Below, piece by piece: positions 11,866 to 28,334 of a DNA stretch of 64,000 nt (position 1 is the stretch's first letter; each line of letters starts with the position of its first letter). This DNA comes from a virus, in the IMG/VR virus record IMGVR_UViG_3300047548_001122, positions 150,238 through 214,237 of that record. One strand, 5' to 3'. A program made the translations under genes and the position numbers. Under the pieces are notes generated by a model. It saw nothing but the letters and a program-made list of their open reading frames with translations, did not search any database and was not told the origin of the DNA.

Positions 11866-11873
11866 GATAAATA
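11866..11873 (+). promoter_or_regulatory. T4-type late promoter box (GATAAATA)
   Basis: GATAAATA followed by CT fits the T4 late promoter form TATAAATACT with one change. It lies 23 bases before the ATG at 11897 in the only gap between the replication operon and the next gene. The predicted start would fall around 11879-11881, inside the hairpin listed next. Confidence 0.6.
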
Positions 11874-13082: not shown

Positions 13083-14312
13083 ATGAAATTTTTAGACTTT
13101 TTAGTAGAAGCCAAAAATGAAGGCGCAAATCTACACCTAGAACATCTAGAAGATAATATATTTAATTTTGGTGTAAATGGTACTCGACAATCAATTGATT
13201 TTTTAAGATCATTAAGAGATATGTTAGCAGGTCATTCACAATCAAAAGTAAATATTACAACAAAATGGGATGGAGCTCCAGCTGTTATATGTGGAATAAA
13301 TCCTGAAAACGGAAAGTTTTTTGTTGGAACAAAATCTGTTTTCAACAAAGATGGTAAATTAAATTACACCGATGATGATATTGATAAGAATCATCCTGGT
13401 GGGGGATTAAATGAGAAATTAAAAATAGCATTGGCCTTTTTACCAAAACTTGGCATCAAAGGTATATTACAAGGTGATTTGTTATTTACCAAAGGTGATA
13501 TACAATCAGAAACAATTGACGGACAAAAATATATAAAGTTTCAACCAAATACTATTGTGTATGCGGTGCCAACCGATTCAGTTATGGCTAAAAAAATGTT
13601 AGCCTCTCAAATGGGAATAGTTTTTCATACTTCTTATTCAGGAAGAACGATAGATACATTGAAAGCCTCCTTCAATATTGACATTGGAAATTTAACACAA
13701 ACTAAAGACGTTTGGTTCCGAGATGCTTCTTTTGTTGATGCGTCTGGTACTGCAACATTCACCGATAAAGAAACTCAAGCAATAACCTCTCTATTATCTC
13801 AAGCAGGTAGAGTTTTTCAAACCATAAATCCTGTCGTGTTAAATAGAATATCCTCTGGAATATTTAAAGAACAAATTAAGACATTCAATAATACAAAGAT
13901 TAGATCAGGACAAAAAATAACAAATACTGGCCAACATGTTTCAGAATTAATTAAATATATTGAAGATAAACTAAACAAAGAAATACTTGTTGCAAAAAAA
14001 GAAGATACAAAGAAGAAAAGAATTGCCGAAAAGAATGAAGTGATGAGGTTCTATAGAGGAAGTGCCAATCAATTAAAATCTGTTTTTGATTTGATGAACT
14101 TAATAGTTGATGCTAAGTTAATGATAATAAGAAAATTGGAATCAATCAAATCTTCAGTAGATACCTTTGTTAGAACAGAAGATGGTTATAGAGTTACTGG
14201 TCCAGAAGGGTTTGTGGCAGTAGATAGAATAAGTGGTGGTGCATTGAAGTTAGTTGATCGACTAGAATTTAGTCAGACCAACTTTAATGCCGCAAAAAAT
14301 TGGAGCAAATAA
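13083..14312 (+). CDS. Ligase-like nucleotidyltransferase with capsid-targeting-like N-terminus
   Basis: A 409-residue protein with the motif series of the covalent nucleotidyltransferase (RNA/DNA ligase and capping) superfamily: KWDG at 61-64 (motif I, with the Lys that would carry AMP), LQGDLLF at 129-135 (motif III-like), PEGFVAV at 374-380 (motif IV-like) and LKLVDR at 388-393 (motif V-like). Related uncharacterised proteins occur in many T4-like phages. The N-terminus MKFLDFLVEA resembles the T4 internal-protein capsid-targeting peptide MKTYQEFIAEA, with a predicted cleavage after LVE. Expressed with the late gene upstream. Activity and substrate unproven; a catalytically dead member is possible. 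Confidence 0.7.
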   Translation: MKFLDFLVEAKNEGANLHLEHLEDNIFNFGVNGTRQSIDFLRSLRDMLAGHSQSKVNITTKWDGAPAVICGINPENGKFFVGTKSVFNKDGKLNYTDDDIDKNHPGGGLNEKLKIALAFLPKLGIKGILQGDLLFTKGDIQSETIDGQKYIKFQPNTIVYAVPTDSVMAKKMLASQMGIVFHTSYSGRTIDTLKASFNIDIGNLTQTKDVWFRDASFVDASGTATFTDKETQAITSLLSQAGRVFQTINPVVLNRISSGIFKEQIKTFNNTKIRSGQKITNTGQHVSELIKYIEDKLNKEILVAKKEDTKKKRIAEKNEVMRFYRGSANQLKSVFDLMNLIVDAKLMIIRKLESIKSSVDTFVRTEDGYRVTGPEGFVAVDRISGGALKLVDRLEFSQTNFNAAKNWSK

Positions 14313-14584
14313 TGGCATACGACTTAAATAAAATATTACAAGAATATGGAGATGATGATTTCGGTTTCTCCGCTGTTTCTGAAGAAGAGTATAATGCTGT
14401 AATCAATGAGAAAGCTGATACAGCGGAAGAGTTTCAAGCAAGATTACAACAAGTTGAGAAATTAGTTTTACCATTCTTCACAAAACTTTTACAAACATCC
14501 GATAAAGAATACATATATTGGCCAAACAGAAAAAAATTAGTTGAAGATCAGATACAAAAGATACTTAAATTAACAAGAGGTTAA
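14312..14584 (+). CDS. Small conserved phage protein
   Basis: Ninety residues, acidic N-terminal half (GDDDFGF) and helical C-terminal half. It begins MAYDLNKILQEYG; the ATG at 14312 overlaps the previous stop (TAATG). It has no recognised domain. It stands directly before the Fe-S scaffold gene, which starts one base after its stop, so the two are co-translated. Confidence 0.65.
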   Translation: MAYDLNKILQEYGDDDFGFSAVSEEEYNAVINEKADTAEEFQARLQQVEKLVLPFFTKLLQTSDKEYIYWPNRKKLVEDQIQKILKLTRG

Positions 14585-14585
14585 T

Positions 14586-14975
14586 ATGGCATATTCAACT
14601 CAAGTATTAGATCATTACGAAAATCCTAGAAACGTAGGTAAATTTGATATAGGTGATGAAAGTGTTGGCACAGGATTAGTAGGTGCTCCAGCTTGTGGTG
14701 ACGTTTTGAAATTGCAGATAAAAGTAGAAGATAATATTATCACTGATGCGAAATTTAAAACATATGGTTGCGGTAGTGCTATTGCTTCGTCATCATTAGT
14801 AACTGAATGGGTCAAAGGAAAAACACTTGAAGAAGCGGGTGCAATTAAGAACACTGAAATTGCAGAAGAGTTAGCTCTACCACCAGTAAAGATACATTGT
14901 TCAATCTTAGCTGAAGATGCTATTAAAGCAGCAATCAAAGACTATCAAGATAAAAACTTAACAAAGGCTGCATAA
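14586..14975 (+). CDS. iscU: IscU/NifU-type Fe-S cluster scaffold
   Basis: Scaffold on which [2Fe-2S] clusters are assembled from cysteine-desulfurase sulfur. All three cluster Cys are present: C37 (APACGD, with the conserved Asp39), C62 (YGCGS) and C105 (KIHCSILAEDA). The LPPVK motif read by the HscA chaperone is intact at 98-102, so the protein could plug into the host Isc machinery. The 129-residue length is that of bacterial IscU. No desulfurase is seen in the window, so host IscS would be needed. A phage IscA homologue is at 47210. ATG starts next gene at the stop (TAATG). Confidence 0.93.
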   Translation: MAYSTQVLDHYENPRNVGKFDIGDESVGTGLVGAPACGDVLKLQIKVEDNIITDAKFKTYGCGSAIASSSLVTEWVKGKTLEEAGAIKNTEIAEELALPPVKIHCSILAEDAIKAAIKDYQDKNLTKAA

Positions 14976-15247
14976 TGTTAAAACAAATAAATGGTCGTTG
15001 GGCTTTAGTTTCGAAAAAAACTCAAAGACCTCTTGCCTATTATAAAGGCGAAGGTAAACCATCGGATGAGTGGGTAAAGAAGCAAGAAGCAAGAATTCAG
15101 ATGTTCAAATCTATGAATGAACAACAAGAATTTGTTTCAAAGGCAGGCGCAGGAGAATGGGGTAGACCCGAAACCACAAGAAAATATATAGAAGATACAC
15201 CAGGACAAAAAGTTCAAAGATTTAAGAAATATATAAAGAATATATAA
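14975..15247 (+). CDS. Small basic phage protein
   Basis: Ninety residues, Lys-rich, with an N-terminal INGRWALVSKKTQRPLAYYKG segment seen in hypothetical proteins of T4-like phages. No domain recognised. Coupled to iscU by a one-base overlap and the last gene of that late operon, ahead of the glycan island. Confidence 0.65.
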   Translation: MLKQINGRWALVSKKTQRPLAYYKGEGKPSDEWVKKQEARIQMFKSMNEQQEFVSKAGAGEWGRPETTRKYIEDTPGQKVQRFKKYIKNI

Positions 15248-15266
15248 TTATTTTATGGAGTAGAGA

Positions 15267-16100
15267 ATGAAAGATTTGATTATAGGATGTTCCACCAACT
15301 ACGATTGGTCTAAGTTAAAATATTGGATCAATTCTATCAATGCATCAGGATTTGAAGGTGATAAAATCCTGATTCTAATGAACTGTGATGCTGAAACAGT
15401 TAAAAAAATTACAGAAGCAGGTTTCGGTGTAATTGGATTCAATCAAGATGAACAAGGTAATTTGAGTTATAGTTCTTCAATGCCTGTCCACACCGAAAGA
15501 TTTTTACACATCTACAATTATTTAAAAGACAGAGACTATCGTTATGTAATCACAACCGATGTTAAAGATGTTGTCTTTCAAAAAAATCCTATCGAATATC
15601 TTGAAGCGGAATGTATTTCTAAAAATCTAATTTTTGCTTCCGAAAGTATCAAGTATAAAGACGAACCTTGGGGTGACCAAAACCTAAAAGAAACTTTTGG
15701 TCCATACATCTACGAACAGTTTAAGAACAATGAAATCTTCAACGTTGGTGTTTTGGCTGGTCACGGCTACGCTATTCGTGATTTAGCTTTGAACATTTTT
15801 GTCGCTAGTTTAAATCGTCCTATTCCAATTTGTGACCAATCTACGTTTAATTTCCTCATTAGTCAAAACCCTTACACCTCATTGAGTAAGTATTGTTTCT
15901 CTGAAGATGGTTGGGCTGCACAACTAGGAACAACAGGTGATCCATCAAAATCTGCACAATTCGATCCTTTGTTACTCGAAGAGAAACCAAAATTTGATGG
16001 TAATATTGTAACTACATCAAAAGGTAAAGAATTCTATATTGTACACCAATATGATAGAGTTCCAGAAATGAAAAAGGTCATTGAGGAAAAATTTGCATGA
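15267..16100 (+). CDS. Putative glycosyltransferase (GT-A-like)
   Basis: A 277-residue protein with a GT-A-type look: N-terminal nucleotide-binding start KDLIIGCSTNYDW, a YRYVITTDVKDVVFQKNP segment (about residues 92-109) whose Asp pair is where the metal-binding DxD motif would be, and later EIFNVGVLAGHG and a CDQSTFNFLI segment, as in bacterial polysaccharide transferases. GGAG lies 10 bases before the ATG. It opens a run of overlapping sugar genes and overlaps the next by four bases. Donor and acceptor unknown. Confidence 0.7.
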   Translation: MKDLIIGCSTNYDWSKLKYWINSINASGFEGDKILILMNCDAETVKKITEAGFGVIGFNQDEQGNLSYSSSMPVHTERFLHIYNYLKDRDYRYVITTDVKDVVFQKNPIEYLEAECISKNLIFASESIKYKDEPWGDQNLKETFGPYIYEQFKNNEIFNVGVLAGHGYAIRDLALNIFVASLNRPIPICDQSTFNFLISQNPYTSLSKYCFSEDGWAAQLGTTGDPSKSAQFDPLLLEEKPKFDGNIVTTSKGKEFYIVHQYDRVPEMKKVIEEKFA

Positions 16101-17053
16101 AACGTCTATTGTTTGTAGTTCATCGTTATGCTCCTTATCCTGGCGGTTCTGAAAATTATGTCAGAGATATGGCCGAAGAATGTGTTCGGAGAGGACATGA
16201 TGTTTCTGTTTTCACTGGCGAACACAAAGGCGATTTGAATGGAGTAAAAGTTACATCAGACGTAAATATTCTAGGTCAAAAGTTTGATCTCATTATCGTT
16301 CATGGCGGCGACGTTGGCTTACAAAATTTAGTATTGATGAACGCAGAAAGAATACCTTCACCAATACTATTCATGATTATAAAACCATCCGAAAGTCCTG
16401 TTTATATTCATGCGATGAACACCGTAAAATACCTAGGATGTTCTGCACCAGAGGATTATGAATTATTGAAAAAACATAATCACATGAATAAGTGTGTTAG
16501 AGTTATTCATGGTATAGATGAAAAGATATCAGTTGGTATGACAGGTTTTAGAGAGAAGTATGGTATAGAAACAAAATATATGTTTTTATCGTGTGGAGGT
16601 TTCTGGCCAAATAAAGCAATGAATGAACTCGCACAAATATTCAATGATATTGGAAGAGATGATGCTACGCTAGTATTAACAGGTTATGATAACAGACATA
16701 ACATTCGTCCAATTGATACGAAATATGTTAAGACATTTATGATAGAAGATAGAGAAGATGTTTTGTCGGCCATTCGTGATGCAGATTTATACATTATGCA
16801 TTCCTTCAGTGAAGGGTTTGGTTTAGTTCTTCTAGAGTCTATGTTAAATAAAACTCCTTGGGCTTCTAGAAAAATTGCTGGTGCTAATTTAATGAGTGAG
16901 TTTGGATTTACATACGAAAATGACCATCAACTTAGAGAATATATTTTAGATTTTGATGGTAATAAAGATGCACAAATAGAAAATGCATATGAGTATGTAA
17001 CATTAAATCATATGATAAAAAATACAGTTGATGATATTATGAGGTTAGTATGA
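16097..17053 (+). CDS. Glycosyltransferase, GT-B fold (GT4-like)
   Basis: A 318-residue GT4-type enzyme. The N-terminus has the HRYAPYPGGSENYVRDMA motif that ends in GG for acceptor binding, and the C-terminal half has the donor-binding HSFSEGFGLVLLESM motif (EGFGxxxLE) near residues 234-248. It would transfer a sugar from a nucleotide donor to a glycan or protein. Length is slightly under the usual 350-400. It overlaps both neighbours by four bases, so the sugar genes are read as one operon. Confidence 0.85.
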   Translation: MKRLLFVVHRYAPYPGGSENYVRDMAEECVRRGHDVSVFTGEHKGDLNGVKVTSDVNILGQKFDLIIVHGGDVGLQNLVLMNAERIPSPILFMIIKPSESPVYIHAMNTVKYLGCSAPEDYELLKKHNHMNKCVRVIHGIDEKISVGMTGFREKYGIETKYMFLSCGGFWPNKAMNELAQIFNDIGRDDATLVLTGYDNRHNIRPIDTKYVKTFMIEDREDVLSAIRDADLYIMHSFSEGFGLVLLESMLNKTPWASRKIAGANLMSEFGFTYENDHQLREYILDFDGNKDAQIENAYEYVTLNHMIKNTVDDIMRLV

Positions 17054-17685
17054 ATTTTACTTTTGGTATTCTTACAAAATACGATGATGAAGAAAAACTA
17101 AAAGAAGTTATAGACTCGATACACAATCTAAACATTCCGGAAAATGGTGGTGATTATCAAGTTTTGGTAATAGGCGAAAAGAAAGTAGAAGGATCAAAAT
17201 ATGAGAGGTACATTTATTTTGATGAAACTGCCAAACCAGCCTGGATAACCAAAAAGAAAAATTTATTGGCTCGTGCCGCAAATTTTCAAAACATTGTTTT
17301 AATGCACGATTACTTTGTTTTTGATAAAGATTGGTATAAAAACTTTTTAGAGTTTGGAAATGATTGGGACATTTGTTCTTGTCCACAATATCTAATAAAC
17401 GGTAAACGACATTTTACCGATTGGGTTTGTTGGGATTCACCTTTATTTCCGAGATATACTTCATTACATTATGATGATTGGTCACATGTGAATTACATGT
17501 ATCAATCTGGCGGTTTCGTTGTTGCAAAAACACAGTTGATTATTGATAATCCATTCAATGAACAATTAGGTTGGGGTCAAGCTGACGATGTTGAATGGTC
17601 TCTCCGAGTGAGACATAGATACAAGTATGTTTGTAATGGAAAAAGTATAGTGAGACATAATAAGGTACATCGTGATGCGAAATAA
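17050..17685 (+). CDS. Putative glycosyltransferase (GT2-like)
   Basis: A 211-residue protein resembling a short GT-A enzyme: FTFGILTKYDDEEKLKEVIDSI start, IVLMHDYFVFDKDWYKNF in the middle (HD in place of DxD) and a GWGQADDVEWSLRV segment (about 179-192), the ED/D-type catalytic region found in GT2 enzymes. Short for a GT2, so it may contain only the catalytic core. Part of the overlapping glycan operon. Confidence 0.7.
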   Translation: MNFTFGILTKYDDEEKLKEVIDSIHNLNIPENGGDYQVLVIGEKKVEGSKYERYIYFDETAKPAWITKKKNLLARAANFQNIVLMHDYFVFDKDWYKNFLEFGNDWDICSCPQYLINGKRHFTDWVCWDSPLFPRYTSLHYDDWSHVNYMYQSGGFVVAKTQLIIDNPFNEQLGWGQADDVEWSLRVRHRYKYVCNGKSIVRHNKVHRDAK

Positions 17686-19045
17686 ATTAATTATATTTGA
17701 CTTAGATGGTGTTTTGATTGAATCTAGAGAATTGCATTATCACGCTCTTAATGATGCATTAAGAAAAGTCGATGAACGTTATGTAATTGACCGAGAAGAA
17801 CACCTCAGTGTTTATGATGGTTTAAACACCACTAGAAAACTTGAAATGTTGACCGAAAGAAAAGGTCTGCCTACGAGTTTCTACGATCAAGTATGGCAAG
17901 ATAAACAGTCAGCAACTTTTGAATTAATCAAACAGTTTCCAAAAAATCCAACCTTAATAGAATTTTTCAGTAGTCTAAAATCGCAAGGTATAAAAGTTGC
18001 CGTTGCAAGTAACTCTATACGTGAAACGGTAAAGCTTGCTTTAATATCTATAGGTGTGTTAGAATATGTAGATTACTTTGTAAGTAATGAGGATGTTAGG
18101 AGACCCAAGCCATATCCAGAGATGTATTGGCAATGCATGACCGTTTTAAATGCATTGCCAAAAACTACAGTTATCTTTGAAGATAGTCACATTGGTAGAG
18201 AGGGTGCTTTAAATTCTGGAGCTCACTTAATTCCATTAAAAGATTCTTTTGATTTGACCAAAGACAAAATAGACGATGCGCTTGATATATTAAATGGAAT
18301 TAAAAAAACAAATATACCATGGAGAAATAAAAAAATGAATGTATTGATACCAATGGCAGGCGCAGGTAGTAGATTTGCTGCAGCAGGTTATACTTTTCCA
18401 AAACCTCTAATCGAAGTTCGTGGAAAACCAATGATTCAGGTTGTTGTGGAAAATCTTAATGTTGAAGCGCACTTCATTTTCATTGTACAAAAAGAACACT
18501 ACGAAAAGTATAATCTAAAACAATTGTTGAATCTTATTGCTCCAGGTTGCGACATAATCCAGGTTGACGGTATAACAGAAGGTGCTGCGTGTACAACATT
18601 ACTCGCAAAAGAACTTATTAATAACGGTGAACCTCTATTGATGGCAAACTCGGATCAATTTGTTGAGTGGAATTCCAATGAGTGTTTATATGCATTTACT
18701 GCTGATACTATCGATGGTGGTATAGTTACTTTTGAAGCCACGCATCCAAAGTGGTCTTTTGCTAAATTGGATGAAAATGGTTTTGTTTCAGAAGTTGCGG
18801 AGAAAAAACCAATCTCGAATATTGCAACGGTAGGAATATATTATTGGAAACAAGGTAGCGATTATGTTAAGTATGCTGAACAGATGATACAGAAAAACAT
18901 TCGTGTCAATAATGAATTCTATGTTTGTCCAGTATTTAATGAAGCAATTGCCGATGGTAAAAAGATAAGAACCAAACATATCGAAAGAATGTGGGGAATA
19001 GGAACACCAGAAGATTTAAATTACTTTTTGGAGAACCATAAATGA
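17675..19045 (+). CDS. HAD phosphatase fused to sugar nucleotidylyltransferase
   Basis: Two enzymes in one chain. Residues 1-210: HAD phosphatase with FDLDGVLIES (motif I), VASNS (motif II), RRPKPYPEMY (motif III) and IFEDSHIG (motif IV). From Met221 on: nucleotidylyltransferase with the signature GAGSRF...FPKPLIEVRGKPMI, a MANSDQF segment (metal site) and a C-terminal GIGTPEDL. Such enzymes make NDP-sugars; a phosphatase plus nucleotidylyltransferase suggests a heptose-like or phosphosugar route. The internal ATG at 18335 has GGAG 10 bases upstream, so the second enzyme may also be made alone. GTG at 17672 is an alternative start. Confidence 0.85.
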   Translation: MRNKLIIFDLDGVLIESRELHYHALNDALRKVDERYVIDREEHLSVYDGLNTTRKLEMLTERKGLPTSFYDQVWQDKQSATFELIKQFPKNPTLIEFFSSLKSQGIKVAVASNSIRETVKLALISIGVLEYVDYFVSNEDVRRPKPYPEMYWQCMTVLNALPKTTVIFEDSHIGREGALNSGAHLIPLKDSFDLTKDKIDDALDILNGIKKTNIPWRNKKMNVLIPMAGAGSRFAAAGYTFPKPLIEVRGKPMIQVVVENLNVEAHFIFIVQKEHYEKYNLKQLLNLIAPGCDIIQVDGITEGAACTTLLAKELINNGEPLLMANSDQFVEWNSNECLYAFTADTIDGGIVTFEATHPKWSFAKLDENGFVSEVAEKKPISNIATVGIYYWKQGSDYVKYAEQMIQKNIRVNNEFYVCPVFNEAIADGKKIRTKHIERMWGIGTPEDLNYFLENHK

Positions 19046-19770
19046 GAGTTGCTGTCGTATTGACCGGACACCTAAGGTGCTGGAAACAAGTGTTTCCGAA
19101 TTTTAAAGAAAAAGTAATTGATCGATATAACCCAGATATATTCATTCATACTTGGGATGAAGAAGGCTGGTGGATACCTGGTGATAAACAAAATGAAAAA
19201 GGTTTCTTTGAGGGTACACCTGAGATTGTAGATCAAGAAGTGATTGATGCTTACAAACCTTTATACTTTGTAAAAGAATATTGGGACGATTTTAATCAAC
19301 ACTTCGAACAGTGTGGAACTTATTTTAAAAACTTCGCACACAGACCAAAAAATATACTTTCGATGTATTATAAAATGCATCAAGGATTTTCTTTGGTTGA
19401 AAAACATCTGGCACAACTACAGGGAAATTATGATCTAGTCATTCGTATGCGACCAGACATGGTTTTTCATGAGGATCTTCCTGATTTTAATATGGGAACT
19501 TTCTATACTATTGCTCACAGAAATCATCTAGGTCAAGGAACTGGAGATTTGATGCAAGTTGGTAGTGTGGGACAAATGTTATTCTTTACAAAAATTATTT
19601 GTTTTATTTCTGAATTATATAAACAAACAGACTTATTATGTCCTCATGTTATAACTGAACAACATATAACAAATTTAAGATTGAACTGGAAAGAATTTAA
19701 TATCAACAAAACTTTAATGCATACGCCGAAGGGTGCTTATGTAGAAATGGATAAAATAAATGCTGAATGA
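19042..19770 (+). CDS. Putative glycosyltransferase-like protein
   Basis: A 242-residue protein beginning MRVAVVLTGHLRCWKQVFPNF and containing YDLVIRMRPDMVF (about residues 130-142). These features occur in a family of uncharacterised capsule or LPS glycosyltransferase-like proteins in bacteria and large viruses. The RPD element is where the nucleotide-sugar site is expected. Function assigned mainly from motif resemblance and its place in the sugar operon; it overlaps neighbours at both ends. Confidence 0.6.
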   Translation: MRVAVVLTGHLRCWKQVFPNFKEKVIDRYNPDIFIHTWDEEGWWIPGDKQNEKGFFEGTPEIVDQEVIDAYKPLYFVKEYWDDFNQHFEQCGTYFKNFAHRPKNILSMYYKMHQGFSLVEKHLAQLQGNYDLVIRMRPDMVFHEDLPDFNMGTFYTIAHRNHLGQGTGDLMQVGSVGQMLFFTKIICFISELYKQTDLLCPHVITEQHITNLRLNWKEFNINKTLMHTPKGAYVEMDKINAE

Positions 19771-20434
19771 AATTTTAAAATTAGATGATGGTCCAATTAA
19801 GTATGAGCCAAGTGGCCGTGGACATATTAAGATGGTGGGACATTCTGTGCCATACAGTATTATGCAAAAAGAATTTGATTTTTTACATAATATCATTGTA
19901 GAAAATAATTTACAAAGAGGTTTCGAATTAGCCACAGCATTCGGTATTTCCGGTACAGCAATAGGCACAGCTTTCAAAAAAACAGGTGGAAAGTTTGTAA
20001 CCATGGATGCGTATATTGAAGAGAAGTATGATAACGCAGGAACGTATGAACATTTCCAAAAAGAAGTTTATGAAAAGTCTGATGGATATAAAAGTGTAAA
20101 TTATCTCATAGATAAATTTGAATTAAGAGATACGATGTTTGCTGAAATTGGTTGGTCTCCAGACGATGTTGACAGTATAGTTGGAAAACATTTCACGGAA
20201 AAATTAGATTTTGTATTTTTGGATGCTGGACATTTTGGCGACCAGATGATTAAAGATATTAAAGAAATAAATAAACACTTAGATGAAAAATTTGTTTTTG
20301 TGTTCCACGATATTTACCCTTGGAGTTGCACACAAGAAGTTCATAATCTGTGTATAGAATTGTTTGGAAAAGATATTGATATTAAACTTCCTTATCCGGA
20401 AGGAGAAAATTTAGGCATAATTTCATGTTTATAA
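19760..20434 (+). CDS. SAM-dependent methyltransferase (class I, Methyltransf_24-like)
   Basis: A 224-residue protein with a Rossmann-type methyltransferase outline: RGFELATAFGISGTAIGTAF at about residues 53-72 (glycine-rich SAM site), FVTMDAY (acidic end of strand 2), LDFVFLDAGHFGDQMIKDI (strand 4, DAGH) and FVFHDIYPW. These elements match the family that methylates sugars or small molecules. In the glycan operon it probably caps or modifies a sugar. It overlaps upstream by 11 bases and downstream by 10. Confidence 0.75.
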   Translation: MLNEILKLDDGPIKYEPSGRGHIKMVGHSVPYSIMQKEFDFLHNIIVENNLQRGFELATAFGISGTAIGTAFKKTGGKFVTMDAYIEEKYDNAGTYEHFQKEVYEKSDGYKSVNYLIDKFELRDTMFAEIGWSPDDVDSIVGKHFTEKLDFVFLDAGHFGDQMIKDIKEINKHLDEKFVFVFHDIYPWSCTQEVHNLCIELFGKDIDIKLPYPEGENLGIISCL

Positions 20435-20889
20435 TTTCACATAGAGCTAATTTAAACGGTCCAGACCCATCAATCGAAAATAAACCTGAATCAATTGTTC
20501 ACGCTATCGATCAGGGATTTTCGGTTGAGGTTGATCTTCGAATGAAAGATCAAAAACTATATTTTGGACATGATGAAGCTCAATATGAAACTGATATTAA
20601 TTTTTTAAAGAAGTACAAACAATATCTATGGATTCATTGTAAAGAAATGGAAACCATGGAGTTTTGTCTTGAACAGGCTCTACACTGTTTCTGGCATAAC
20701 GATGATGATTATACACTGACAAATTACAGATATGTCTGGGCATACCCCGGAAAAGAACCTGTCGGCAAACTAACGATAATGGTGATGCCAGAAAGGCACT
20801 GGAGTCCAGAAGAAACCCTATCAAAAAAACCATTTGGAGTATGCACAGACTACCCTTATGCGTATCAAGATATTATAAATAAGAGATAA
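20425..20889 (+). CDS. Short glycerophosphodiesterase-like protein
   Basis: A 154-residue protein with the GDPD/PI-PLC catalytic pattern: SHRANLNGP with His6-Arg7, the acidic pair in SVEVDLRM (Glu35, Asp37) and GHDEA with His49. These residues correspond to the HR, ExD and H of glycerophosphodiester phosphodiesterases. It is only about 60% of the usual family length, ending after CTDYP, as in short phage and bacterial relatives near capsule genes. It may act on a phosphodiester in a teichoic-like or capsular glycan. Last gene of the glycan operon. Confidence 0.7.
   Translation: MFIISHRANLNGPDPSIENKPESIVHAIDQGFSVEVDLRMKDQKLYFGHDEAQYETDINFLKKYKQYLWIHCKEMETMEFCLEQALHCFWHNDDDYTLTNYRYVWAYPGKEPVGKLTIMVMPERHWSPEETLSKKPFGVCTDYPYAYQDIINKR
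20874..20881 (+). promoter_or_regulatory. Exact T4-type late promoter box (TATAAATA)
   Basis: TATAAATA, the exact T4 late -10 sequence, lies inside the end of the GDPD-like gene and 33 bases before the ATG of the large internal-protein-like gene at 20915. No other promoter is visible there. Confidence 0.6.
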
Positions 20890-20914
20890 AATAACACTGC
20901 TGTAGAGGCGGAGA

Positions 20915-23659
20915 ATGAAATTTAAAGACTTTCTAACAGAAAAGAAAGAAGTACATGCCGTAATGGCCTTTGGGAGAATGAATCCCATAACTTCTGGCCA
21001 CGAAAAATTAGTCAACGCTGTCAAAAAAGTTGCTGCCAAAGTTGGCGGTTCACATATTATCGCACTATCACATTCTCAAGACCCAAAGAAAAATCCTCTC
21101 ACAGCCGCACAAAAAGTCAAATACGCCAAAGGTGCATTTCCTGGCACAAATTTTGTTGCTGCATCTAAAGACGCACCTACATTCTTTGAACACGCCGAAA
21201 AACTATACAAACAAGGTGTAACACATTTACATATGATTGGTGGTTCTGATCGCGTAGAAGAATATAACAAATTACTTCACAAATATAATGGCACACATAA
21301 AGGTGCTCGTTTCAATTTTAAAACCATCGAAGTACATTCTGCTGGTGAACGTGATCCTGATGCAGATGGCGTCGAAGGAATTTCTGCAAGTAAGATGCGT
21401 GAGGCAGCAAGTAAAGGAGACTTTAATACTTTTAAGAAAGGTGCTCCGTCAACAATGTCAGTCGATCTAATGAAACAAATGTATAAAGATGTACGCAAAG
21501 GTATGAACCTTAAAGAAAGTATTAATGAAGAATTTGAAGAACTTTTGATTGAAGGTGTTCACGACAAAGGTATTTTTAAAGCTGTATTTTTAGCAGGTGG
21601 TCCAGGTTCAGGTAAAGATTATGTATTGAGTAATACACTTGATGGTCATGGTTTAACTGAAATCAATTCTGATAAGGCTTTAGAATTTTTAATGGACAAA
21701 AAAGGTCTCGATAAAAGAATGCCTGCAAGTGAAACGGAAGCTAGAGATAAAGTTAGAGCTAAAGCAAAAAATGTTACAGAGCTTCGTCAAAGACTTGCAT
21801 TACAAGGAAGAAATGGACTAATCATTAATGGTACTGGTGATGATGTTGAAAAAGTAACAAGAATCAAATCTAAGTTGGAAGAATTAGGTTACGACACTTC
21901 AATGATTTTAGTGAATACGAATGATGAAGTATCTGCTCAAAGAAATATTGAACGTGGTCAAAGAGGTGGTCGCACAGTACCAGAAACCATTCGTAAAGAA
22001 AAATGGGACAATGTTCAAAATGCTCGTACTGAATATGCAAAACTTTTTTCTAATAATTATATGGAGTTTGATAACTCCGAAGATTTGAGACAAGCTCCTC
22101 CTGATGTTGTTAAAAGTAAAAAAATGGAGATGATGCAACTGTTTAAAAACGTACAACAGTTTGTTGCACAACCTCCTCAATCACCTGCTGCACAAGAGTG
22201 GGTAGCAAATGAATTAGAACAAAAAGATACTCTTAAACCACCAAAAAATGGTGTTGAACAAGTTGTACCACATGGTTCGAGTGCAGCAGAAGAAGCCAGA
22301 AAATTAGGATTACAATATTATGGTTTCGGTAGATATGGTAAAAACGGAAAAACTACACACCGTTCCATTCATGATAAACTTGTACAAGTTACTGATAAAA
22401 AACCAGAACAACCTAAACTACCTACACCTGGTTCTTCACCAATTTCAAACAAAAAAAATGTTTCAGAAGAAATTAATATTGATGAAGAATTTAACGAAAT
22501 GCTTGATTCTTTAGATGAAGATTTACGTAAATGGTTTGACCCAAAACATCCAGAAGGTGGTTGGAAAAGAATTAACTCTAAAGGTGAAGCTATAGGTCCT
22601 TGCGCTCGTGAACCAGGTGAACCAAAACCAAAATGCATGTCAAACGAAAAGAGAGCTAAGTTGAGTAAACAAGAAAGAGCTTCTGCTGTTGCTGCAAAAC
22701 GCAAACATGATCCTATTGCAGATAGATCGGGTAAAGGTGGTAAACCAGTAAACGTTTCCAATTTTGGAAAAGGTAAATTGTCTGAATCTGTAACAGTTTC
22801 AATTACTGGTGATACTGTTGATGAAGTTAAAGATTTCTTCAACACAATGGGATCAAATTTAAATACAACTACAGAACAATATGCATTATCAGATTCCAAA
22901 AAAGAATTGATAACTCTGGGTAAATTTACTCAACCATTTGGTGAGAAAATGGAAAATACCACCATTACAAATGATATGGTTGAAAATATGCTTGAACAGA
23001 AAGAACCTAATTTACTCAAAGACAAGAGTGGTAAAGTTAGGGTATTCATGTTAAGATCGGTAGCGGCTAAAGAAGCTCATACAAGTCAAGGTACAGTTTT
23101 AAAGTATAAAAACGGTTATGTCGTTAAACTAAAAGAGGAGATTGAAGATGTTGAAGTTTATAAAGGAACTATTCGGAATTGGATTGAAGAATCCAGAAAA
23201 ACATGGATTGGAGGGAGCAACCAGAGCACCCAACGAGGACTTCTCACAGAGAGTGGAACAATATCAAACGGAAGTTCCGAAGGTAGAGGAACCGAAAGTA
23301 GAAGAATTGAAAGTGGAGAAACCAAAGAAGAAACAACCATCCAAGAAGCCTGCGAAAATAACTCCACAACCGCAACCAAAAAAATCACCCTCGCAGAAAT
23401 CAAACAGAGGCAGAAAGCCAAACACCAAAAACAAATCGACGAAATAGATCGAGGTATTGAACCTGGCATATCAATGGCTGGTGCTGGCGAAGGCATCGGC
23501 CGTGATATGGGTGAAAAAATTAAAAAAAGGTCACATAAAGTTACTGTTGTTGAATTAACTGGTGATGAAACAACAGCATCTATTGGTGACCAAAAAGAAG
23601 ATGAGTTAAAGAAAAAAGGTATCTCACTAACTACATTTAAAAAGAGAAACTACATATGA
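20915..23659 (+). CDS. Modular protein: capsid-targeting-like tag, nucleotidyltransferase, P-loop kinase
   Basis: A 914-residue multi-domain protein. Residues 1-9 (MKFKDFLTE) resemble the T4 capsid-targeting peptide. Residues 14-195: HxGH-type nucleotidyltransferase (MAFGRMNPITSGH, then ISASKMR at 156-162), closest in look to NMN/pantetheine-phosphate adenylyltransferases. After an ELLIEG linker, residues 220-390 form a P-loop kinase (GGPGSGKDY at 228-236) resembling zeta-toxin/AAA_33 kinases. Residues 516-620 (DEDLRKWFDPKHPEGGWKR, GPCAREPG, NEKRAKLSKQERASA) are a Cys-containing basic module common in aquatic phage proteins. The rest is basic and less ordered. Nucleotidyltransferase plus kinase recalls NadR. 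Another frame inside residues 745-845 also looks coding. Confidence 0.8.
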   Translation: MKFKDFLTEKKEVHAVMAFGRMNPITSGHEKLVNAVKKVAAKVGGSHIIALSHSQDPKKNPLTAAQKVKYAKGAFPGTNFVAASKDAPTFFEHAEKLYKQGVTHLHMIGGSDRVEEYNKLLHKYNGTHKGARFNFKTIEVHSAGERDPDADGVEGISASKMREAASKGDFNTFKKGAPSTMSVDLMKQMYKDVRKGMNLKESINEEFEELLIEGVHDKGIFKAVFLAGGPGSGKDYVLSNTLDGHGLTEINSDKALEFLMDKKGLDKRMPASETEARDKVRAKAKNVTELRQRLALQGRNGLIINGTGDDVEKVTRIKSKLEELGYDTSMILVNTNDEVSAQRNIERGQRGGRTVPETIRKEKWDNVQNARTEYAKLFSNNYMEFDNSEDLRQAPPDVVKSKKMEMMQLFKNVQQFVAQPPQSPAAQEWVANELEQKDTLKPPKNGVEQVVPHGSSAAEEARKLGLQYYGFGRYGKNGKTTHRSIHDKLVQVTDKKPEQPKLPTPGSSPISNKKNVSEEINIDEEFNEMLDSLDEDLRKWFDPKHPEGGWKRINSKGEAIGPCAREPGEPKPKCMSNEKRAKLSKQERASAVAAKRKHDPIADRSGKGGKPVNVSNFGKGKLSESVTVSITGDTVDEVKDFFNTMGSNLNTTTEQYALSDSKKELITLGKFTQPFGEKMENTTITNDMVENMLEQKEPNLLKDKSGKVRVFMLRSVAAKEAHTSQGTVLKYKNGYVVKLKEEIEDVEVYKGTIRNWIEESRKTWIGGSNQSTQRGLLTESGTISNGSSEGRGTESRRIESGETKEETTIQEACENNSTTATKKITLAEIKQRQKAKHQKQIDEIDRGIEPGISMAGAGEGIGRDMGEKIKKRSHKVTVVELTGDETTASIGDQKEDELKKKGISLTTFKKRNYI
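23148..23447 (+). CDS. Possible overprinted gene inside the large modular protein gene
   Basis: In the +1 frame relative to the 914-residue gene, a 99-residue frame starts with ATG at 23148, with AGAGGAG ending about 9 bases upstream. The product begins MLKFIKELFGIGLKNPEKHG, which looks like a natural amphipathic start, and ends in a Lys/Pro-rich, highly basic tail of repeated VEEPKVEELKVEKPK type. The host frame in this stretch reads as unusual Ser/Thr/Glu-rich sequence, so the alternative frame may be the older one here. Coding is not proven. Confidence 0.45.
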   Translation: MLKFIKELFGIGLKNPEKHGLEGATRAPNEDFSQRVEQYQTEVPKVEEPKVEELKVEKPKKKQPSKKPAKITPQPQPKKSPSQKSNRGRKPNTKNKSTK

Positions 23660-24183
23660 AGTCATTTACTCAATTCATAAACGAAGAAGTTGAAATTCTG
23701 GATGAAATGCCTGGTGCCAATATGGACACCAGAGCGGTTCATCAACATCTGAAAAAACAAGGATGGAAATTAACCAGAAGTTCTGGCAATCATGATGTGT
23801 TTACTCATCCAGATGCTAAACATCACATTCCCGTTCCTCGTCACAAACAATTGAAAGCTCCTTTAGTTCGTGGTATCTTAAAACAAGCTAAAGTAAATGA
23901 AGAAGTTGAATTGGATGAAACTGCTGCATGGCAACGTAAAGAAGGTAAAAATCCTGAAGGTGGATTAAACCGTAAAGGTATCGAATCGTATCGCCGTGAA
24001 AATCCTGGTTCTAAACTATCGATGGCTGTAACTACTCCTCCATCAAAACTAAAACCAGGTTCAAAGGCTGCAAAGAGAAGAAAATCCTTTTGTGCAAGAA
24101 TGGGTGGTATGCCTGGTCCAATGAAGGATGAAAAAGGTCGTCCAACAAGAAAAGCATTATCTTTGCGTAAATGGAACTGCTAA
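23656..24183 (+). CDS. HicA-like domain protein with capsid-targeting-like N-terminus
   Basis: A 175-residue, three-part protein. Residues 1-18: MKSFTQFINEEVEILDE, like the T4 capsid-targeting peptide, ending in a possible LxE cleavage site. Residues 25-78: HicA mRNA-interferase-like double-stranded-RNA-binding fold, with HLKKQGWKLTRSSGNHDVF (catalytic His in GNH), HHIPVPRHKQLKAPLVRGILKQA. A VELDE linker follows (near 83-88). Residues 90-175: AWQRKEGKNPEGGLNRKG and KRRKSFCARMGG modules known from phage hypothetical proteins (DUF6321-like). No HicB antitoxin is nearby. ATGA overlap links it to the 914-residue gene. Confidence 0.75.
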   Translation: MKSFTQFINEEVEILDEMPGANMDTRAVHQHLKKQGWKLTRSSGNHDVFTHPDAKHHIPVPRHKQLKAPLVRGILKQAKVNEEVELDETAAWQRKEGKNPEGGLNRKGIESYRRENPGSKLSMAVTTPPSKLKPGSKAAKRRKSFCARMGGMPGPMKDEKGRPTRKALSLRKWNC

Positions 24184-25482
24184 ATGGCACAGTTTAGAAC
24201 CGACAAAAACATTATCGATTCGGGTCAAGTATTTACTCGATATGAGATAATGATGTTATCTGATAGGCTGACACCATCTGGTACAGCCACAGATGCGTTC
24301 GGTCGTTTACGTGTTGCTGAACCACATACTCTTTTTGATTCACAACATCAAGACGTTGAAAATGATAAATGGGATACACTCATTACAGGTTCGGGCACCA
24401 AAACACATTTACCAAATGAATCTGTAATTGCTTTAGAAATTGGTACTGCAAATAACGATGGTATTATTCGTGAAACACTAAGAACAATGCCATACCAACC
24501 AGGCAAATCATTGTTGATTATGAGCACATTTGCTATGGGACAACCAAAAGCGAACGTTGTTCAGAGAGTAGGATATTATGGAGCAAATAACGGAATTTAT
24601 TTTGAAAACGATTCTGGAAATAACTATGTTGTATTAAGAAGTTCTGTTACAGGAAATGTTGTAGAAACTAGAGTTGCACAAACAAATTGGAATGTGGATA
24701 AATTTGATGGTACGGGATATTCGAGTCAGGGAACAGGACCAGAACACGTTGATGGAATAAATGTAAACAAATCAAATCTTTTTTGGATTGATATTGAATG
24801 GCTAGGCGTTGGTGATGTTCGATGTGGTTTTTTGAATGACGGCCTATTAAAAACTGCACACATATTTCATAACGACAATAAAAACAATACAACTTATATG
24901 CGTAGTGCAATTCAACCATTGCGATATGAAATATTTAACAAAGGTGTTACAACATCAAATACGCTGATGCGTCAAATTTGTTCTACAGTCATATCCGAAG
25001 GTGGTTATACACAAATTAATCAATCAAGGTCAGCATCAAATCCTTTGGCTGGTAAAAACTTAACTGTTAGTATTAATAACCCAATGGTAAGCCTTCGGTT
25101 AAAAAATGGTAGAACAAATGCTGTCGTTGTACCTGTTGCAATTGATATGTATGGATTACAAGCAACAGCATTTAAATATAGAGTGTATGAGAATGTCACA
25201 AGTTTAACCGGTCCATCATGGGTTACAACCGACGCCGCAAGTGCAGTTGAGTATGATATATCGGCAACGGCAATGACTGGTGGAACTTTACTTAAAGAAG
25301 GTATTTTCAAAGGATTAGAAGTTGCAAAAGAAGTTAATTTGTTACAACTATTAGATGGTGTTATACAACTAACAAGAAAAATAAATGCAAACACTGGCGA
25401 CATATTCACGGTTGCAATAGAACCAACAACAAACAACGATGATGCTATCGTAGCATTATCATGGCAAGAACACATTAATTAA
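24184..25482 (+). CDS. Putative virion structural protein
   Basis: A 432-residue protein, rich in Asn/Thr/Gly and beta-strand-like sequence, beginning MAQFRTDKNIIDSGQVFTRYE. I recognise no catalytic motif. Composition, size, lack of signal peptide and place between internal-protein-like genes suggest a capsid or tail component; proteins of this style occur in aquatic T4-like phages. The ATG follows the previous stop directly (TAAATG). No promoter visible between them. Confidence 0.6.
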   Translation: MAQFRTDKNIIDSGQVFTRYEIMMLSDRLTPSGTATDAFGRLRVAEPHTLFDSQHQDVENDKWDTLITGSGTKTHLPNESVIALEIGTANNDGIIRETLRTMPYQPGKSLLIMSTFAMGQPKANVVQRVGYYGANNGIYFENDSGNNYVVLRSSVTGNVVETRVAQTNWNVDKFDGTGYSSQGTGPEHVDGINVNKSNLFWIDIEWLGVGDVRCGFLNDGLLKTAHIFHNDNKNNTTYMRSAIQPLRYEIFNKGVTTSNTLMRQICSTVISEGGYTQINQSRSASNPLAGKNLTVSINNPMVSLRLKNGRTNAVVVPVAIDMYGLQATAFKYRVYENVTSLTGPSWVTTDAASAVEYDISATAMTGGTLLKEGIFKGLEVAKEVNLLQLLDGVIQLTRKINANTGDIFTVAIEPTTNNDDAIVALSWQEHIN

Positions 25483-25497
25483 AAATAGGAGACTCAA

Positions 25498-26904
25498 ATG
25501 TTTCAAGACAAACTAACAAGAGAAATTGCTGCAGCTGCTGCACAAATCAAAACAGAACCACCAAAGAATGAAGTTAATTCTGAGTCTGTTGAGGGTGCAG
25601 TCGTTTCTGTTATGACGAATGAAGAACTAAAAGGCAATCAACACAAGATTGATGCTAACAAAAACGGCAAAGTTGATGCACATGACTTTAAACTTCTTCG
25701 TGCCAAGAAAGGTAAAACGGTAGAAGAAGGCATTAAAGGTGCTGGTATAGGTGCTGCTGTAGGTTCTGTTGCTGGTGGACCGATTGGTGCAGCAGTTGGT
25801 GGTGCTTTGGGGCATGTAGCAGGTGAAGTTCTATCAAGTGCTAAGAATAAAACAAAAGCTATGTATCGTATTGCAAAAGGTCCTTCGATGGCCGACAGCA
25901 AAATAAAGAAAGAAGAAGTTGAAGAACTCGATGAATTGTTTGGAAAAGGTAAATTACCAGCAATTGCAGCATATCACAAAGAAAAAGGTGCTGAAGCTAA
26001 AGGTAAGATGGAAACAATTAGAAGTGGTAACACTAAACTTCCTGTTCCAAAATCTACATCTGCTAAAATCTTTTCTAAAGATGCTGAAGCTAAATATCAT
26101 TCAACTCAGGAGAAAAGAGCAAAATCTTTGATGAAAAAAGAAGAAGTTGAATCCGTTGAAGAGGGATTTGGTGATCTAGTTAAAGGTATTAAACGTGTCG
26201 TTGCCGGTAAAAAGAGTCCTAGTGCCGTAAGAGATGCACACTTAGCAAAATCTGCTTTTAGTACAGATCCGAAAGTTAAAGAGCGTGAAGGTCGCCGTTA
26301 CGATAAAGTGGATAACTTCATGATGAAAAAAGAAGAAACGGAATTGGATGAAGCCTTTCCAACTGTAGCTGATGCTAGAAAACGTATGGCTGCAAAAGAA
26401 AGTGGTTTCGAGAAAAAGAAAATTTCTACTGGTACAGTTTACTCACGTAAGTATAAGGCAGAACCAGAAGAGAATGATGAAGCGCCAAAGAAAAAGGCCA
26501 AGACCATGAAAGAAATGTTGAGTATCTATTCAGCAGGTGGCGCCGAAGCTTTGGTAGAAAATCTCATGATCGAAGAACCATCACAAGATGAATATAAAAA
26601 GGAAGTTGAAACTGCTCAGGCAAAAGCTGACGGTAAAATTCGTAACGATAAAGGTATAGCTAAAGCAGCATCACAGGGTGTAAAGATGGAAGAAGTTGAA
26701 ATTGAAGTTCTTGATGCAGATGAAATCAATGGAGTTCAGATTGACAATATTGAAGAGCGCCACATGACTGATGCTGAAATGGATAAACGTGAAGAAATCG
26801 TTAAGTCAATGAAAAAAGGTATTCAAGGTTTCAAAGATCGTTATGGCGATAAAGCAAAAAATGTAATGTATGCTACTGCAACCAAATTGTCCAAAAAGGA
26901 TTAA
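25498..26904 (+). CDS. Modular internal-type protein with EF-hand loop, glycine zipper and VEELDE linkers
   Basis: A 468-residue, Lys/Glu/Ala-rich protein. Residues 52-63 form a calcium-binding-type loop (DANKNGKVDAHD), followed by LLRAKKGK. Residues 81-109 are a glycine zipper (GAGIGAAVGS repeated) able to insert in a membrane. Then short modules are separated by near-identical linkers: KKEEVEELDE (137-146), KKEEVESVEE (213-222), KKEETELDE (277-285) and MEEVEIEVLDADE (397-409). LxE ends resemble T4 prohead-protease sites. The C-terminal KAKNVMYATATKL is a common phage element. Strong GGAG upstream. Likely a virion protein processed in the capsid. Confidence 0.7.
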   Translation: MFQDKLTREIAAAAAQIKTEPPKNEVNSESVEGAVVSVMTNEELKGNQHKIDANKNGKVDAHDFKLLRAKKGKTVEEGIKGAGIGAAVGSVAGGPIGAAVGGALGHVAGEVLSSAKNKTKAMYRIAKGPSMADSKIKKEEVEELDELFGKGKLPAIAAYHKEKGAEAKGKMETIRSGNTKLPVPKSTSAKIFSKDAEAKYHSTQEKRAKSLMKKEEVESVEEGFGDLVKGIKRVVAGKKSPSAVRDAHLAKSAFSTDPKVKEREGRRYDKVDNFMMKKEETELDEAFPTVADARKRMAAKESGFEKKKISTGTVYSRKYKAEPEENDEAPKKKAKTMKEMLSIYSAGGAEALVENLMIEEPSQDEYKKEVETAQAKADGKIRNDKGIAKAASQGVKMEEVEIEVLDADEINGVQIDNIEERHMTDAEMDKREEIVKSMKKGIQGFKDRYGDKAKNVMYATATKLSKKD

Positions 26905-26906
26905 AC

Positions 26907-28334
26907 ATGAAGAAGATGTCTGACGTTTTCAAATCCATTCGTTTTGCCAAAATGGACCCAAAACACGATAAGCCCGAAATTGGTGGTTCGAAAGATGACG
27001 AGGAACATTATACTGTTGGTGAAAAGGAATATGAACAACAGGTAAAACATGTAAAAAAGCGTGCTATGCAAGAAGAAAAGAAAGACAAATATGATGAAGG
27101 TGAATATGACCGAGAAGGCGATATGGCTAAATCTGATCTTCGTTCTATCATTGCAAATGCAAAAAGATTGCATGATATGATCGAAGATTCGGCTAACCTT
27201 CCTGAATGGGTGCAGTCTAAAATTACTGTTGCTGAAGATTATATTTCTACAGTTGCTAATTATATGACATCAGAAATGAGTGAAGGGGTATCTGATAAGT
27301 TGTACAAATCTCATCAAGATTTGCGTAAGAAGAGTGGGTTACCTCATCCCGATTACTACAAAGCATTAGGTAAATCTTATGACATTGAAGATGATAAAGA
27401 ACGCCTTACACATCAATCTGAATTAAAGAAAAAATATGGTGTGAAAGAAGAGGTTGAACTTGAAGAGTCCTCTAAATTTGCAAAAATTTTTGATAAGAGA
27501 GTCAAACAAAGAGAACTCAATAAATTACCTAAAGAACCAAAAGGTGAATATGAACGTAAAGTGGACAAGTATTTGAAGAAGAAATATAACAAAGAAGAAG
27601 TTGAACTTCAAGAAGGTCGTCCATCACAACGCCATCCATTAGAGGGTCATGAGTATCACAAAAAGTCTAATGAAGAATTGATTGGTATTGCTAAAGATGC
27701 ACATGCGGCTGCTGAAGCAATGAAGGGTCACAGTACCAGAGCAGAAAACAAATATCGTGACCAAGCAAATGATTCTGCAACAGTACGTTATTTCCGACAA
27801 AAGAGTGGTATGCCTGACTGGTACAAAAAGAAGTATGGTCATGTCAAAGAAGGAGTAGAACTTGAAGAGGGTTTACAACAAACTCTTAGAAAAGTTGTTC
27901 CTGGTTATGCAAAGAAACAAATAAACGATAAAATGGACCGTGAAAAGTTTGGTAGAAGAGATGTGGATAAAGACGAGAATTATTATCGTTATAAAAAAGT
28001 CCTCGACAAATTAAAAAAAGAAGATGTTGAACAATTAGAAGAAAAGAATGTTCCAACTTCTCCAGAAAAATGGGCTCAAGCCAAAGCACAAGCAAAGGCC
28101 AAGTTTGACGTTTATCCTTCTGCCTATGCAAATGGTTGGGCTGCAAAGAAATATAAAGCAATGGGTGGTGGTTGGAAATCAGTCAGTGAAGAATCTATTT
28201 TAGAGTCTCGTAAGGCTGAAATTGTCAAAAAGATAGTTAAGAGTAAAAAAACTAATAGTGATGATAAATTTGAACCTAACCCTATCATGTCGAAAGATGA
28301 AGATAGGGGCAGAGATAACATAAATAACAAGTAA
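26907..28334 (+). CDS. Modular internal-type protein with repeated VELEE linkers
   Basis: A 475-residue, highly charged protein built of modules joined by repeated linkers: VKEEVELEE (179-187), NKEEVELQE (228-236), VKEGVELEE (313-321) and KKEDVEQLEE (370-379). The N-terminal module (about 65-124, DMAKSDLRSIIANAKRLHDMI onward) and the module at 383-424 (SPEKWAQAKAQAKAKF, FDVYPSAYANGWAAKKYK) recur in proteins of aquatic phages. No enzyme motif seen. Starts two bases after the previous gene and is clearly related to it in style. Candidate polyprotein cleaved at LxE sites. Confidence 0.7.
   Translation: MKKMSDVFKSIRFAKMDPKHDKPEIGGSKDDEEHYTVGEKEYEQQVKHVKKRAMQEEKKDKYDEGEYDREGDMAKSDLRSIIANAKRLHDMIEDSANLPEWVQSKITVAEDYISTVANYMTSEMSEGVSDKLYKSHQDLRKKSGLPHPDYYKALGKSYDIEDDKERLTHQSELKKKYGVKEEVELEESSKFAKIFDKRVKQRELNKLPKEPKGEYERKVDKYLKKKYNKEEVELQEGRPSQRHPLEGHEYHKKSNEELIGIAKDAHAAAEAMKGHSTRAENKYRDQANDSATVRYFRQKSGMPDWYKKKYGHVKEGVELEEGLQQTLRKVVPGYAKKQINDKMDREKFGRRDVDKDENYYRYKKVLDKLKKEDVEQLEEKNVPTSPEKWAQAKAQAKAKFDVYPSAYANGWAAKKYKAMGGGWKSVSEESILESRKAEIVKKIVKSKKTNSDDKFEPNPIMSKDEDRGRDNINNK
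28320..28326 (+). promoter_or_regulatory. Possible late promoter box (ATAAATA)
   Basis: CATAAATAAC lies at the extreme 3' end of the preceding gene and 32 bases before the ATG at 28359, the same spacing as the TATAAATA box before 20915. Weaker match to the T4 late box, so only a candidate. Confidence 0.35.

Follow-up and report, generated by a model that had tools for sequence, protein, structure and literature searches.

Capsid-targeting-like N-termini mark three enzyme- and effector-bearing proteins of a T4-like phage as probable head cargo

Three proteins encoded in a 64,000-nucleotide stretch of a T4-like virus (IMG/VR record IMGVR_UViG_3300047548_001122, 214,237 bp) start with short peptides resembling those of the T4 internal proteins, and the locus raises the question of whether proteins built of enzyme-like domains are loaded into the phage head and delivered with the genome. 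The stretch, hereafter the window, spans positions 150,238–214,237 of the record, and feature coordinates are window positions. The first-pass annotation of the window had proposed packaged cargo behind a T4-like capsid-targeting sequence (CTS), an interpretation now supported by a head protease gene, by conserved tag residues and by tagged orthologues in purified virions. We consider it likely that the DUF6267 protein starting at 13083, the 914-aa multidomain protein starting at 20915 and the HicA-like protein starting at 23656 are head cargo, tagged with a CTS, processed by the protease and ejected with the DNA.

All three N-termini lie where they had been placed, at ATG-initiated open reading frames (ORFs), and each is a short peptide holding both the targeting and the processing residues of a T4-type CTS. 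In T4 IPIII (MKTYQEFIAE) genetic analysis assigns residues 4 and 7 to targeting and residues 8 and 10 to processing (PMC9026906). The T4-like spacing that had been claimed is exact in the 23656 protein (F4, F7, I8, E10), whose tag residues are those of IPIII, whilst in the 13083 and 20915 proteins it is shifted by one (F3, F6, L7, E9) because the peptide is one residue shorter. A regular expression composed with the three proteins in view (^M[KRNHI].?[FYL]..[FY][LIMF].E) was run over the greedy ORF set of the whole record and matched exactly these three. Inside proteins the core motif occurs at 1.46e-4 per residue, corresponding to 0.044 matches expected at 304 first starts, and 0.17 matches of the expression are expected at all 1140 candidate starts (Poisson p 1e-5 to 7e-4). 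A chance origin of the N-termini, which the first-pass annotation had named as grounds for abandoning its proposal, therefore fits poorly with three matches against 0.04 expected and with recovery of the T4 control. The independent test is provided by other genomes, T4 and S-CREM2: in T4 the expression recovered IPII, IPIII and the uncharacterised gp61.1, and in S-CREM2 it matched four proteins, all four of them virion-detected (52 of 219 proteins were detected; p 0.003). In S-SZBM1 two proteins were matched, one of which was virion-detected. T4 gp61.1 (gene 61.1, - strand, L264 18966-19130; 54 aa, MKTFKEFIKEDMVAG), fitting the same expression as IPII and IPIII, is from its sequence a candidate unrecognised T4 internal protein.

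A survey of relatives for the same N-terminal peptide, the check originally suggested, found the tag residues kept in DUF6267 relatives drawn from IMG/VR and counted over 38 distinct N-termini. These start M-K/N-F-x-x-F/Y-L/I-x-E-(A/S/G), with position 3 always F, position 6 F or Y, position 7 L or I and position 9 E, whilst positions 4, 5 and 8 vary; positions 3, 6, 7 and 9 are kept across synonymous codon changes. The residues conserved across relatives are exactly those that T4 genetics assigns to targeting and processing. At P1', the residue after the predicted cut, there are 22 A, 8 S, 5 G and 3 others, against a 20% background for A, S and G together. Relatives of the 914-aa protein were gathered via neighbouring genes, a direct contig search having given one locus (its patterns fell in variable segments), and in 20 full-length sequences M1, F3 and E9 never vary and F6 hardly does. 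Some DUF6267 relatives begin directly at the domain (MATKTDKNVHLEH, MAKNTHLEH), and the tag peptide is therefore an add-on; it is detachable in the manner of a T4-type CTS, with DUF6267 found both with and without it and the same kind of tag on unrelated folds. In a structure model of the 13083 protein residues 1-14 have a predicted local distance difference test (pLDDT) score below 50 and are predicted to be disordered.

The genome also holds what would be needed to read such a tag. A Peptidase_S77 prohead protease of the gp21 type is encoded at 129,486-129,944 of the record (PF03420, E 3.2e-35), and the major capsid protein carries QLTE↓ATPT (the arrow marks the putative cleavage point) at the equivalent of T4 gp23 FLTE↓AE. 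Since the protease gene and the matching capsid protein site are found in the same genome, the record has the machinery that reads T4 capsid-targeting sequences.

The strongest support for packaging comes from relatives. Mass spectrometry (MS) detected a SAM hydrolase, an APH-like kinase and a cytidyltransferase in S-CREM2 virions (PMC10665884), and these start MKDFDSFLEE, VKRFDAFLTE and MKNFSSFLTE↓A respectively; the virion-detected gp13 starts MKDLHSFLTE, and the tagged virion proteins of this phage are gp6, gp13, gp14 and gp154, that is, all four motif proteins. The cytidyltransferase _140 found in S-SZBM1 virions (PMC9146016) starts MRFRQFIIE↓A, and the NMNAT ORF91 found in S-SCSM1 virions (PMC9602691) starts MKSFLQFLKE↓A. 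A cytidylyltransferase (T4-GC190) was likewise detected in S-SM1 virions by Sullivan et al. (PMC3037559), and a serine/threonine kinase is reported from S-CRM01 virions, as cited in PMC10665884; the S-CRM01 kinase gene product starts MISFDQFLSE. Read from genes alone, the tag is kept in Syn9 gp184 (MKKFSAFLSE↓A), in S-CRM01 127 (MKLFNQFFKE↓A) and, upstream of the annotated start, in Bellamy 170 (MKSLFQFLNE↓A). The start of Bellamy gp170 is apparently mis-annotated, an upstream start giving MKSLFQFLNEAQ (L272 2782-2830). For the phage studied here, packaging in its own virion is inferred from these orthologues.

Two further features were seen in cyanophage proteins. S-CREM2 gp12, annotated as Cas9/Csn1 (L259 7704-10313, - strand), has a CTS-like LRFASFMAE↓A near its start and no Pfam match. 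The virion proteins S-CREM2 gp160 (L094 28342-29235) and S-SCSM1 ORF97 (L274 31121-31306) each contain a near copy of the N-arm peptide of the major capsid protein, GFTG(A/S)(A/S)A..GPxAG(F/Y)DPxM.

Late boxes had been noted before the first two of the three genes. The boxes are present and NATAAATA is enriched upstream of ORFs, but the window holds no excess of the TATAAATA octamer (3 found vs 7.4 expected). Its count there was accordingly rejected as evidence of late expression, and position relative to ORF starts was assessed genome-wide instead: of the 30 NATAAATA sites on the plus strand, 15 precede an ORF start by 10-60 nt vs 4.7 expected, one ORF-proximal site preceding the scaffold gene. 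Because of this enrichment we regard a late-promoter reading of the boxes as credible but not strong.

The three N-termini stand as first described, but a larger pattern had been missed, the same (L/I)xE signature recurring in inter-domain linkers. The modules of the 20915, 23656, 25498 and 26907 proteins are separated by segments ending in (L/I)xE. In the 914-aa protein the E213↓G214 junction sits in a hinge modelled as disordered between two folded domains, and the kinase domain that follows is preceded by [LIVMF]xE↓G in 30/30 distinct junctions of otherwise varied sequence; at four loci where the kinase is N-terminal in its own protein, the signature lies near the start (HTVC008M MIPFILKE↓G, Melnitz MKTFAELQE↓G). 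Counting distinct contexts, (L/I)xE also precedes the YPSAYAN module (12/12), the NMNAT-like domain (15/15) and, in about two thirds, DUF6321. In the lysine-rich modular proteins the typical linker is (K/N)EEVEQ(L/I)DE, the median module length is 77 residues, and E.[LI].E occurs at 6.3x the shuffled expectation, whilst [LI].D, [LI].Q and [VA].E show no excess. Linkers of the EEVExLDE class also occur in the S-SCSM1 virion proteins ORF89 and ORF92. Treating all EEVExLDE linkers as canonical protease sites was found to be unsupported, their P1' being loose, and the kinase E↓G junction is the stronger case; cleavage at the EEVExLDE linkers is put forward only as a hypothesis because their P1' is not restricted to A/S/G.

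The domains behind the tags, originally described as enzymes and effectors, are indeed of that kind by Pfam: DUF6267 in the first protein, CTP_transf-like and Zeta-toxin-like P-loop kinase domains in the second, and HicA (PF07927, E 4e-13) with DUF6321 (PF19846, E 3e-23) in the third. In DUF6267 K61xDG (D63, G64), D132, E375, G376, V378 and K389 are kept at 90-100% (96 and 32 relatives); we take these residues to be ligase motifs I (KxDG), III, IV (EGxV) and V (K). Judged by its sequence, the domain keeps the motif set of covalent nucleotidyltransferases. Its best Foldseek matches to the PDB are DNA ligase adenylation domains, at weak scores (E 0.05, TM < 0.2), and a PDB sequence search with the DUF6267 profile returned only coiled-coil keratin noise. 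The 914-aa protein has the NadR-type domain order, NMNAT then P-loop kinase (Pfam/PHROGs), and NadR is its top Foldseek match (E 2.5e-7); for the kinase domain, in which the P-loop GGPGSGK is intact, the TM-scores of polynucleotide kinase and adenylate kinase equal or exceed that of NadR, and Pfam assigns Zeta_toxin. Further C-terminal modules lie beyond its basic module. In several virion enzymes the tag is followed at once by a module of about 40 residues, KLGLxxxGxGxWxDxxG, which is also found within the 914-aa protein; the loci concerned are 22277-22450 of the window, L274 26819-28048 and L272 2782-4017. Many lysine-rich modular proteins of phages contain HicA-like modules, and despite the HicA-like domain in the 23656 protein, no HicB (PF15919) was found in the record. 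Restoration of NAD (nicotinamide adenine dinucleotide) by injected enzyme and RNA/DNA repair against host defence are both plausible functions for such cargo. No paper mentioning DUF6267 or DUF6321 was found in the literature searched (subscription papers outside the search).

Several points weigh against packaged and processed cargo. P1' is A/S/G in the 13083 family (35/38) and in six cyanophage cytidyltransferases, but is the non-canonical K in the 20915 and E in the 23656 protein; the tags of these two may target without being cut, a possibility opened by T4 IPIII genetics, which separates targeting from processing. P1' at the EEVExLDE linkers is weakly enriched for G/A, and related sequences are non-independent observations. 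Two of the three tagged S-SZBM1 coding sequences (_191, _192) are outside its virion MS list, and the cyanophage DUF6267 orthologues S-SZBM1_141 and S-CRM01_132 lack the tag, S-SZBM1_141 also falling outside that list. Because these orthologues are untagged, packaging is not universal for the DUF6267 family, and we rejected virion cargo as a constant role of DUF6267. The MS studies moreover allow that enzymes may co-purify and leave contamination open (PMC10665884, PMC9602691), as would hold if these were cytoplasmic late enzymes whose N-termini are ordinary helices, carried over as contaminants into the virion preparations of relatives. We find this very improbable, given the specificity of the motif, the A/S/G at P1', the detection of all four tagged S-CREM2 proteins and the restriction of conservation to those positions to which T4 genetics gives a targeting or processing role (PMC9026906); from the sequences, the shared tag favours packaging over contamination.

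The tagged proteins might instead be core or scaffold parts serving head assembly or DNA compaction, their enzyme folds being relics and nothing functional being ejected. Their net positive charge would suit such a role, and in T4, core proteins likewise open with a short amphipathic peptide whose end is an (L/I)xE site; the catalytic residues are however intact (DUF6267 K61xDG, E375 and K389; P-loop GGPGSGK) and the S-CREM2 virion partners include a SAM lyase and a kinase, leaving this an unlikely account. A closer contest concerns the linkers. The tag could direct proteins to the prohead core whilst the EEVExLDE linkers are flexible acidic spacers, or recombination junctions permitting module shuffling, which we regard as a serious possibility, only a little short of even. 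Many different residues occupy linker P1' (G, L, A, K, V, R, M; A+G+S about 30%), and one linker joins many different modules, as a recombination-friendly spacer would. Set against this are the kinase junction, kept 30/30 amid variation and N-terminal where the kinase is its own gene, and the E.[LI].E excess of 6.3x over shuffled expectation, which [LI].D, [LI].Q and [VA].E do not share. That marine and freshwater T4-like phages load modular 'cargo polyproteins' through a shared CTS and (L/I)xE linkers, with the head protease releasing modules in trans, is to our minds evenly poised between true and false.

Under the preferred reading, that of CTS-tagged and ejected cargo, the 9-10-residue N-terminal peptide would draw each protein into the prohead core, and the gp21-type protease would remove it at (L/I)xE, at least where P1' is small. 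The same protease would probably also cut the (L/I)xE linkers in trans, turning a long precursor into several separate mature modules. These would remain among the packaged DNA, be carried into the host along with it, as is inferred from T4, and act from time zero. The cargo would be enzymatic, comprising a ligase-like nucleotidyltransferase, an NMNAT-like domain with a P-loop kinase, a HicA-like domain and basic, nucleic-acid-binding-like modules. Phages with such tagged proteins probably deliver preformed enzymes to the host along with their genome.

Cyanophage virion proteomes repeatedly contain NMNAT-like proteins, kinases and SAM lyases, which the original studies were unable to classify as either cargo or contamination. 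The N-terminal tag, common to the detected enzymes and rare elsewhere, offers a testable sequence-only rule for predicting head cargo in abundant water phages; no paper linking a CTS to cyanophage cargo was found in the literature searched (subscription papers outside the search). If such proteins are packaged and ejected, these phages would be targeting host NAD, RNA or restriction as soon as infection begins. Should the linkers be cut, the head protease would release parts of fused effector proteins, of which we found no description in the literature searched. Were the cargo polyproteins real, the head would serve as a compartment in which an injected set of several enzymes matures, its modules shuffled between phages at cleavage linkers.

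Table 1. Features of the cargo locus and its surroundings, in window coordinates.
Feature	Position	Strand	Basis
Late-promoter-like box GATAAATA, before the 11897-13083 gene pair	11866..11873	+	Sequence read; NATAAATA enrichment upstream of ORFs
phrog_1462-family gene	11897..13081	+	Weak match (25% over 162 aa, E 9e-5) to S-SCSM1 ORF90, annotated virion protein
DUF6267 protein, starts MKFLDFLVEAK	13083..14312	+	409 aa, ATG-initiated ORF; PF19782 E 1.6e-113
Capsid-targeting-like prepeptide MKFLDFLVE, predicted cut after Glu9, P1' Ala	13083..13109	+	Relatives' P1' and predicted disorder
Late-promoter-like box TATAAATA, exact, 33 nt before the 20915 ATG	20874..20881	+	Sequence read; NATAAATA enrichment
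Multidomain protein, starts MKFKDFLTEKK	20915..23659	+	914 aa, ATG-initiated ORF
Capsid-targeting-like prepeptide MKFKDFLTE, P1' Lys (non-canonical)	20915..20941	+	Conservation in relatives
Cytidyltransferase/NMNAT-like domain, aa 11-205	20945..21529	+	phrog_3041 E 4e-64; NadR and NaMNAT structure matches
Flexible hinge, aa 201-217, putative site LLIE213↓G214	21515..21565	+	[LIVMF]xE↓G junctions; pLDDT < 50
Zeta-toxin/polynucleotide-kinase-like P-loop kinase domain	21554..22234	+	PF06414 E 3e-12; Foldseek polynucleotide kinase, adenylate kinase, NadR
Small GxG module, aa 455-512, common to virion kinase S-CREM2 gp14	22277..22450	+	34% over 62 aa, E 9e-6
Basic module, aa 537-627, common to virion protein S-CREM2 gp160, preceded by SLDE↓D	22523..22795	+	44% over 72 aa, E 4e-8
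HicA-like + DUF6321 protein, starts MKSFTQFINEEV (MKSFTQFINEE)	23656..24183	+	175 aa, ATG-initiated ORF
Capsid-targeting-like prepeptide MKSFTQFINE, exact T4 register	23656..23685	+	F4, F7, I8, E10; relative L096 MKTFKAFISE
Linker EVEILDE before HicA-like domain	23686..23706	+	[LI]xE↓MP in 11/11 distinct upstream contexts
Linker NEEVELDE between HicA-like domain and DUF6321	23896..23919	+	Linker class of 25498 and 26907
Modular lysine-rich protein, repeated EEVEELDE-type linkers	25498..26904	+	
Modular lysine-rich protein, linkers VELEE↓S, VELQE↓G, VELEE↓G, QLEE↓K	26907..28334	+	

Amongst known systems, phage P1 DarB is an anti-host protein sent into the head by an N-terminal signal (PMC9024508), but that signal lies within the first 30 residues, is no T4-type 10-mer and belongs to a different capsid lineage. 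The head ejection proteins of SPN3US and phiKZ (gp245-type proteases, PMC10052503) share with the present system N-terminal propeptides, a T4-related prohead protease and ejected cargo, the last being a prediction here; their motif is of the AxE type and their propeptides are mostly long (111-254 aa), in contrast to the short CTS-like peptide and (L/I)xE described above. Polyvalent proteins of phages and plasmids (PMC5512222), virion-delivered and proposed to be split into units, likewise join many effector-like domains in one polypeptide, as was found here, but bring their own MPTase peptidase domain; no peptidase family is among the Pfam matches of the 13083, 20915, 23656, 25498 and 26907 proteins, and cleavage in trans by the head protease is proposed instead. 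The cyanophage virion NMNAT-like cytidyltransferases and kinases (T4-GC190; S-CREM2 gp154 and gp14; S-SZBM1_140; S-SCSM1 ORF91) have an orthologous NMNAT-like domain and the same tag and are virion-detected, whilst the domain studied here is fused to a kinase and more modules; no targeting mechanism was found in the papers describing them. The closest likeness is to T4 IPI-IPIII and Alt, whose CTS is cut by gp21: a 9-10-residue N-terminal peptide with the aromatic-xx-aromatic-(L/I)-x-E register, a cognate S77 protease, a late expression signal and diverse mature domains behind a shared tag. Unlike the T4 internal proteins, the cargo here consists of large enzymes and multi-module proteins with extra (L/I)xE linkers between modules, and two of the three tags have a P1' other than A/S/G. 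The system very probably works like the T4 internal-protein system and belongs to it.

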